From contig NZ_CP015105.1 in assembly GCF_002214545.1 (NCBI RefSeq), positions 868,001-932,000 on the forward strand: a stretch of 64,000 nt of DNA. The letters run 5' to 3'. Below are positions 51,743-55,787 of the stretch, one piece after another (position 1 is the stretch's first letter; each line of letters opens with the position of its first letter). Both the position numbers and the translations under genes were made by a program. This DNA comes from Thermococcus thioreducens. Its GTDB lineage: Archaea; Methanobacteriota_B; Thermococci; Thermococcales; Thermococcaceae. The notes under the pieces were generated by a model. It had not been told where the DNA came from. It was given only the letters and a program-made list of their open reading frames with translations, and ran no database searches.

Positions 51743-51803
51743 CGGCGTCAGACCCTAAGGTCCTCCTCACCCTTCGGGAATCCGCCGTAGTCATCATCCG
51801 CCG
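51743..51803 (-). ncRNA. C/D box guide sRNA 1
   Basis: The minus strand reads C box ATGATGA (51791-51797), a 13-base spacer guide, D' box CCGA, C' box GTGAGGA, a 12-base guide GGACCTTAGGGT and D box CTGA (51748-51751). The ends CGGCG and CGCCG can pair to close the k-turn stem. A TATA-like GTTTTAAAACC on the minus strand at about 51821-51831 is at the right distance. Archaeal C/D sRNAs guide 2'-O-methylation of rRNA or tRNA. By the fifth-base rule the D guide addresses the U in ACCCUAAGGUCC. The target RNA was not located. Confidence 0.82.
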
Positions 51804-54382: not shown

Positions 54383-54766
54383 CTAGAGAACCGCTATCGC
54401 CTCTATCTCAACCGCTACCCCCTTGGGCAGGTTGGAGACCTCCACGACAGCTCTGGCGGGTTTTGATGTCGAAAAGTACCTCTCGTAGACCTCGTTGAAC
54501 CTGGCGTACGCGCCCATGTCCGTGATGTAGACGGTAACCTTCACGATGTTCTCGGCGCTTCCGCCTGCTGCTTTAACGACCTCTATGAGGTTTTTAATTG
54601 CCTGCTCGGCCTGCTCCTCAATTGGACCAGTCACCAGCTCTCCTGTCTCGGGGTTTATGGGTATCTGCCCTGAAACGAACAGGAACCTGCCCTCGGTGAT
54701 TACTCCCTGACTGTAGGGGCCTATTGGTCTTGGGGCCTTTTCCGTGAAAACTATTTCCTTCTTCAT
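54383..54766 (-). CDS. ridA: RidA-family enamine/imine deaminase
   Basis: 127 residues of the Rid/YjgF family: APRPIGPYSQGVITEG at the start, the VKVTVYITDMGAYARFNEVY core and the binding-pocket Arg in KPARAVVEVSNLPKGVAVEI. It hydrolyses reactive 2-aminoacrylate-type enamines made by PLP enzymes. GGAGGTGG precedes the ATG. Confidence 0.93.
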   Translation of the reverse strand: MKKEIVFTEKAPRPIGPYSQGVITEGRFLFVSGQIPINPETGELVTGPIEEQAEQAIKNLIEVVKAAGGSAENIVKVTVYITDMGAYARFNEVYERYFSTSKPARAVVEVSNLPKGVAVEIEAIAVL

Positions 54767-54794
54767 TTACACCACCTCCAGTTTGTTCCGTTGA

Positions 54795-54851
54795 TCAGCG
54801 AAGCGAAGAGTCCTCATCGGCTTCCCTCAGGTGTCCTCGGCCTCATCATCT
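54795..54851 (-). ncRNA. C/D box guide sRNA 2
   Basis: The minus strand gives C box ATGATGA (54843-54849), 12-base guide GGCCGAGGACAC, D' box CTGA, C' box ATGAGGA, 12-base guide CTCTTCGCTTCG and D box CTGA (54795-54798). Both spacers have the canonical 12-base length. Terminal pairing is short (GA/TC only). It fills the gap between the DUF2666 and ridA genes and may be processed from their shared transcript. Targets were not located. Confidence 0.8.
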
Positions 54852-54868
54852 CCGTTCTGGTACGGCCT

Positions 54869-55669
54869 TCACTTCTTCTCCAGGTACTTCTCAAGGCTCT
54901 TGGCTGGAACGTCGAGGGGCAGACCTATTTTCCCAAGGGCGGTTCTCAGGGCATAGACCCTTGCGTGTTCATGGAAGCCGGTCGGAGCGTAGTTCTCGGC
55001 CGGGAAGTGCCTGTACTTTTCAACGACCCCCGGTATCTCGGCCTTTTTGACCTTCTTGAATTCACCAAACCATGCCTCTATTCCCTTGATGTCAATTCCA
55101 GCGTAGAAGGGCAGTTTGAGCGTGATGCTCTCGTTTATGCTGGCGAGGAGCCTTGCAACGTCTGCCATGGGAGTCTTCTCATCGATAATGAGCCTTCTAA
55201 CAGCCCTCCACTTTGTTTTGCCGCTCACATGGAAGGCTACAAAGTTGATGTGGTCTTCGTTGTATGGGAATACTATTCTAACTTCGCTCAAGGGCTCCTC
55301 TGGGTACTCGACCGGCACTTTTTTGGAGAGCACCTCTCTCACGAGCAGGGCCTTGGCGACCTCAACGAGATGCTTTTTGAGCTTCTTGTCCTCCTCGAAG
55401 ACGAGCTGGCCAAGCTTCCTGGCAGTCCCGGGTGATTTGAGAGCAATGATGGCATCGCCCAGGTCTTTCTTGGCCAGCTCCCCCGCGAGGCTCATTATGC
55501 CTGCGACGTTCATTACCTCCGTGAGGTACTCGGGTATCTTGGCGTTGACAGTATTGGCTATGCTCGCTATGAAGTGGGCAACTTTCTCGTCATCCATATC
55601 CAGGAGCCTGTCAGCCACCTTCCAGCTCCCGTGATGTGCCGTAAACACTATCTGATCCTCAACCTTCAT
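54869..55669 (-). CDS. DUF2666-like protein with internal duplication
   Basis: 266 residues made of two related halves. Each has an opening strand pair and a helical segment: QIVFTAHHGSWKVADRLLDM with VAHFIASIANTVNAKIPEYL, and HINFVAFHVSGKTKWRAVRR with VARLLASINESITLKLPFYA. This fits the archaeal DUF2666 family, of unknown function. The ATG at 55669 is preferred after GGTGA. No catalytic motif is apparent. Confidence 0.65.
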   Translation of the reverse strand: MKVEDQIVFTAHHGSWKVADRLLDMDDEKVAHFIASIANTVNAKIPEYLTEVMNVAGIMSLAGELAKKDLGDAIIALKSPGTARKLGQLVFEEDKKLKKHLVEVAKALLVREVLSKKVPVEYPEEPLSEVRIVFPYNEDHINFVAFHVSGKTKWRAVRRLIIDEKTPMADVARLLASINESITLKLPFYAGIDIKGIEAWFGEFKKVKKAEIPGVVEKYRHFPAENYAPTGFHEHARVYALRTALGKIGLPLDVPAKSLEKYLEKK

Positions 55670-55787
55670 CGCTGTCACCAGTGGTTATGGATGGCAGGCC
55701 CTATTTTAGCTTTTTCTCGACCATCTCAAAAAAAGTTATAAATCGACCCGAGCACTCCAGTTTGAGAGAGTGAAAGAGGGAAGAAAA

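Follow-up and report, generated by a model that had tools for sequence, protein, structure and literature searches.

The C/D box sRNA gene located between the DUF2666 and ridA genes of Thermococcus thioreducens is a gene of the known guide RNA sR45 (Rfam family RF01274), and is not new. Its presence, conservation, and family membership are shown by the match to the family model and by the copies in related genomes. The reading as a whole, in which sR45 would be cut out of an mRNA and would guide the methylation of G2162 and C2101 of 23S rRNA, seems highly probable.

Identification of the sRNA Gene

In the window (the whole stretch of DNA analysed, 64,000 nucleotides), a search against Rfam at the gathering cut-offs gave two matches, one tRNA and sR45. 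The sR45 match scored 70.5 bits, the cut-off being 40, with an E value of 3.5e-15. Both guides of the family, which are common to the relatives, were found in the window copy by alignment to the model, whereas the other C/D families in Rfam all stayed under their own cut-offs for this sRNA. Among these, RF00095 (snoPyro_CD) shares the general Pyrococcus C/D box architecture, but the score was 25.8 bits, under the cut-off of 45. As in archaeal C/D sRNAs, the boxes RUGAUGA, CUGA, RUGAUGA-like, and CUGA follow each other in this order within 50-70 nt, and the guides of 10-12 nt are complementary to rRNA (in 23S, ten of ten core positions for the D guide and nine of ten for the D' guide). The features are listed in Table 1.

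Table 1. Features of the sR45 locus in the window
Feature	Position	Strand	Basis or remark
sR45 C/D box sRNA	54793..54853	-	RF01274 match, whole model 1-55/55, gathering search
Box C, ATGATGA	54843..54849	-	Sequence and four-box pattern search
D' guide GGCCGAGGACAC	54831..54842	-	Best site 23S 2097-2108, 9/10 core pairs, predicted Cm2101 (own numbering)
Box D', CTGA	54827..54830	-	Sequence and four-box pattern search
D'-C' spacer GGGAAGCCG	54818..54826	-	Predicted 2-bp stem GG/CC, loop GAAG, giving a capped K-turn as the internal motif; covariation over 35 distinct spacers
Box C', ATGAGGA	54811..54817	-	Sequence and four-box pattern search
D guide CTCTTCGCTTCG	54799..54810	-	Best site 23S 2158-2169, 10/10 core pairs, predicted Gm2162 (E. 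coli G2056)
Box D, CTGA	54795..54798	-	Sequence and four-box pattern search
DUF2666 gene (PF10869), upstream	54869..55678	-	Stop codon 19 nt upstream of box C
ridA gene (Ribonuc_L-PSP, PF01042), downstream	54383..54766	-	Start 28 nt after box D

The preliminary description had placed a C/D box sRNA between DUF2666 and ridA, at 54795-54851. The sRNA itself was borne out by the four boxes, both guides, the RF01274 match, and the domains of the neighbouring genes (PF10869 and PF01042). Its extent needs a small correction: the boxes are present, but boxes C to D span 54795-54849 on the minus strand, and position 54851 overshoots box C by two bases. The gap spans 102 nt (54767-54868), between the DUF2666 stop and the start of ridA.

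The boxes are short and rich in TGA, and might have come together by chance inside an intergenic spacer. However, the four-box pattern was found at two sites in the 64 kb and in none of 100 Markov-simulated windows of the same dinucleotide make-up. Together with the E value of the Rfam match and the conservation across genera, which already refutes a chance match, this leaves such an origin a negligible probability.

A second C/D box sRNA was observed at 51748-51797 on the minus strand of the window (ATGATGA, CCGA, GTGAGGA, CTGA); it is likely the "sRNA 1" of the preliminary description. This sRNA is under the Rfam cut-offs (snoPyro_CD, 26.5 of 45 bits), and DNA matches of 85-100% identity were found in 22 of 41 searched genomes, its own included. 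Cm2409 is predicted from its D' guide, which forms 12 of 12 pairs with 23S 2405-2416, and Um2382 from its D guide, which forms all ten core pairs with 23S 2378-2389. These predicted targets are 27 nt apart.

Conservation of Boxes and Guides

RF01274 scored over the cut-off in 76 of the 94 genomes of the Thermococcaceae, the archaeal family of the window, and in 65 of the 74 family genomes with at least 90% completeness and at most 5% contamination. The search of the phylum (115 genomes) gave the same 76 and none outside the family, and the RF01274 search of 14 control genomes gave none. In addition, a scan of the collection with both guides found 13 stretches, from Thermococcus and from other Thermococci MAGs.

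Seventy-six copies were retrieved; 75 were handled by the parser, and the remaining one (L075) was inspected by eye. The D guide is identical from position -1 to -11 in all 75 parsed copies, an invariance due partly to selection, as the parser mostly recognised copies by their D guide core; only one copy of the 76 lay outside it. In that copy, L075, box C is degenerate and the D guide differs by a single C-to-T change. The core of the D' guide, GCCGAGGACAC, is identical in 70 of 75 parsed copies. Position -12 of both guides is free and can be A, C, G, or T. Thus, the "exact 12-base guides" of the preliminary description are both present in the window, but the conserved part is the 11 nt next to the box, and the twelfth drifts. 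The condition under which it would be refuted, a lack of box conservation in syntenic relatives, did not arise: the boxes are kept, and the C' form ATGAGGA is found in 52 of 75 sR45 copies, including that of the window.

In crystal structures of sRNPs, the first and the twelfth guide positions are not paired with the target. The free position -12 fits this rule, although position -1 of the D guide is invariant despite not pairing.

Predicted Targets in 23S rRNA

Targets were searched in the 16S and 23S rRNAs and the 44 tRNA loci of the same genome. The search gave two sites in 23S rRNA, 61 nt apart, the D' site being imperfect; none of the RNAs searched matches either guide exactly over the full 12 nt. 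Both targets are computed predictions. At the D site, where all ten core positions pair (23S 2158-2169), the base opposite the fifth guide base is G2162. It aligns with E. coli G2056, as numbered from A2058, the macrolide-binding position. The G2056 equivalent is two bases from the A2058 position, which is a G in this rRNA. Shuffled D guides reached ten of ten core pairs in 208 of 20,000 trials.

The best D' site is upstream of the D site and points to C2101 (about C1994 in E. coli). The pairing contains an A.C mismatch at position -7, conserved on both sides. Of 20,000 shuffled D' guides, 432 reached at least nine of ten core pairs no farther than 100 nt from the D site, versus 4,188 anywhere in 16S or 23S. 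As a closely spaced pair, the two sites are therefore meaningful; taken alone, the D' site would not be. Because of the mismatch and the latter frequency, the D' target is unproven. A second candidate for this guide was found at 23S 1158 (8.5/10).

An alignment of 12 23S genes from 11 genomes, that is, the own gene and 11 genes from ten of the 12 genomes searched (two gave no 23S), showed no change in either core site. One genome (G002) carries two 23S genes, of 3025 and 3057 nt; the other nine matching genomes carry one each. Since the rRNA sites are invariant in the genomes compared, no covariation between guide and target was found. In the D' guide of genome G078, two A-to-G changes turn A-U pairs into G.U pairs, and one change breaks a pair. 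These changes are consistent with the 23S site, but are not proof of it.

Other targets were also considered. Among the 44 tRNA loci, the D' guide had no match of at least 8/10, and the D guide matched at best with 8.5/10, in tRNA-Cys, which is weaker than its 23S site. The complement of the 10-nt D' core has 21 exact matches in the own genome, one of which is the sRNA itself. Fourteen of the other 20 places were scanned with Rfam, and none was inside an RNA family match; some of the places have HgcG, sR60, sR1, or a tRNA close by, though not covering the match at about position 1501. The C/D box sRNAs sR1 and sR60 are in tandem, at 1836-1892 and 1924-1980 of locus L136, near 95 kb of the own genome.

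These matches bear on a different use of the same RNA: sR45 might be a true C/D sRNA of which only the D guide acts on rRNA, the D' guide having another target or serving as an RNA-chaperone contact. Besides the imperfect D' pairing and the many exact genomic matches, the variation of the D' core in five of 75 copies, as against none for the D guide (plus the C-to-T change in the 76th), would agree with it. On the other hand, the distance between the two sites is within the spacing given for dual guides in a review (PMC7994747), the 14 scanned exact matches led to no RNA family, and no tRNA match of the D' guide reached 8/10. We regard this use as possible but rather doubtful, and prefer the reading in which both guides act on 23S rRNA.

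The literature search, with the target list of Gaspin 2000 lying outside it, gave no account of archaeal methylation at G2056, and it gave none of the Pyrococcus sR45 boxes.

Loss of sR45 in Relatives

Eighteen genomes gave no sR45 match; DUF2666 was located in 14 of these, and the downstream sequence was inspected by eye. In six of them, DUF2666 is followed by a JAB-domain gene, which in the window is the gene after ridA: ridA and sR45 are both gone from this place. Three genomes keep ridA and have no sR45. In one genome (G060), a decaying sR45 remains downstream of DUF2666, with box C lost and the D guide shortened, and ridA is still adjacent. In four genomes, other genes are the neighbours of DUF2666.

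Four of the 12 aligned 23S genes come from three genomes without sR45. Some species without sR45 thus have unaltered rRNA sites, and in these the sRNA is dispensable. Its loss from several relatives suggests either that methylation of the site is not essential or that a different guide has assumed this task. A pattern search for a replacement guide with one mismatch, which would miss a guide with more, gave matches in 18 genomes; in the genomes without sR45, 33 of the matches, mainly with a C[CT]GA end, were inspected, and none was flanked by C/D boxes.

Spacer between Boxes D' and C'

The window copy agrees with RF01274 over the full model, with every box and the two guides included, but differs in the D'-C' spacer. 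The family consensus has a short loop, whereas the spacer of the window copy has 9 nt, with six inserted bases, and is hairpin-like. The spacer is 3-4 nt long in 13 of 75 copies, namely those of one group that is probably Pyrococcus, of T. kodakarensis, and of a few more genomes; the remaining 62 have spacers of 7-17 nt. In the probable Pyrococcus group it is a 3-nt K-loop. The K-loop was reportedly described as general for Pyrococcus guide RNAs by Nolivos in 2005.

Pairing in the long spacers was examined with the base before C' taken as the unpaired base of the K-turn. The first pair forms in each of the 35 distinct long spacers (G-C in 33, C-G in two), and at least two pairs are formed in 27 of the 35, the second being frequently C-G as well as G-C. 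Shuffled spacers averaged 11.2 for the first pair and 3.4 for two pairs, and none of 5,000 shuffles reached either observed value; this overstates the support, as related sequences are not independent, while the double changes are direct. The hairpin spacers have a covarying stem of 1-5 bp, often with a GNRA loop. Judged from these patterns, a capped K-turn seems to replace the K-loop in most relatives. We are inclined to think that, inside the Thermococcaceae, one and the same guide RNA, with its guides constant, has switched its C'/D' motif between the 3-nt K-loop and the K-turn capped by a stem of 1-5 bp. The single-strand fold of the window sRNA is not better than that of shuffled sequences (z = -1.35), which says little for the C/D class. 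The Rfam structure line pairs both guides with each other and was not relied on.

Gene Context and Expression

The sRNA is directly behind DUF2666 and on the same strand in 71 of 72 parsed loci. Three more copies showed this arrangement by eye, and DUF2666 was not found on the contig piece of the L075 copy. In 34 of 72 loci, box C (R-TGA-TGA) contains the TGA stop codon of DUF2666, which in the window lies ahead of the box (Table 1). This arrangement is not new, because the same layout has been reported for archaeal C/D genes: 25% of them overlap the 3' end of a gene (Tripp 2017), and in almost half of the overlapping ones the stop codon is in box C (PMC7994747). In genome G093, sR45 and DUF2666 are encoded on opposite strands and face each other tail to tail, with about 20 nt between the sRNA and the stop codon. 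The DNA before this sR45 is AT-rich and could hold its own promoter.

The gene following sR45 is ridA in 61 of 72 loci, and its start is within 30 nt of box D in 41 of 72. This closeness, along with the translational regulation by L7Ae that has been suggested for archaea (PMC5539422), could mean that the element is a cis-acting K-turn in the DUF2666-ridA mRNA, bound by L7Ae and controlling ridA, besides or instead of guiding. However, sR45 persists without an adjoining ridA in 11 of 72 loci, and in G093 its strand is opposite to that of DUF2666. Such an element would not require conservation of the guides, and a separate circular RNA exists in T. kodakarensis, whose ridA gene is not a neighbour. 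Control of ridA in cis is accordingly an improbable role, and the guide RNA is the preferred reading.

That circular RNA is listed as sR34, which is Tko-sR35, at 1103565-1103626 (PMC9014305, Table 1). The sequence at this position, in a genome whose 23S location also matches the published one, is exactly the sR45 copy. As given in that source, Tko-sR35 had 20,161 aligned reads, 119 of them circular, in the wild type, and no circular reads in the RNA-ligase knockout (PMC9014305). In the literature cited here, expression of sR45 is established for the T. kodakarensis orthologue only. This orthologue has the same guides and the same place behind DUF2666 as the window copy, but a spacer of 3 nt rather than 9 nt and, by our own counting rule, a terminal stem of 7 bp rather than 2 bp. 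In the same data, 16 of 17 non-circular C/D sRNAs had terminal stems of two pairs or fewer (PMC9014305). Because of its short terminal stem, the window copy may be less prone to circularise, and its RNA is predicted to be mainly linear.

Proposed Mechanism and Implications

No TATA-like TTTAWA was found near the start of the window sRNA. Therefore, sR45 is most likely cut out of the DUF2666-ridA transcript. By the steps established for this class of RNA, L7Ae would bind the C/D K-turn and the second K-turn at C'/D', and Nop5 and fibrillarin would then join; the fibrillarin gene is present in the own genome. With the D guide paired to its 23S site, fibrillarin would methylate the 2'-O of G2162, and the D' guide, less perfectly paired upstream, might direct the methylation of C2101. 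We infer that sR45 guides 2'-O-methylation. The standard C/D sRNP mechanism, as outlined in the review (PMC7994747), would account for the features seen.

The previously unexplained gap thus contains the gene of a known housekeeping RNA. The most useful by-products are the prediction at G2056 and the series of K-loops and K-turns. The former can be tested: a 2'-O-methyl group should be present on the nucleotide that corresponds to E. coli G2056, next to the macrolide position and to the peptide-tunnel entrance. The spacer hairpins offer a modest structural lesson on the interchange of K-loop and K-turn; if the switch is true, they would form a natural series for the effect of either motif on sRNP assembly and on methylation of the tunnel site at G2056. 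Finally, the species with and without sR45 provide a natural comparison for the role of this methyl group at high temperature.
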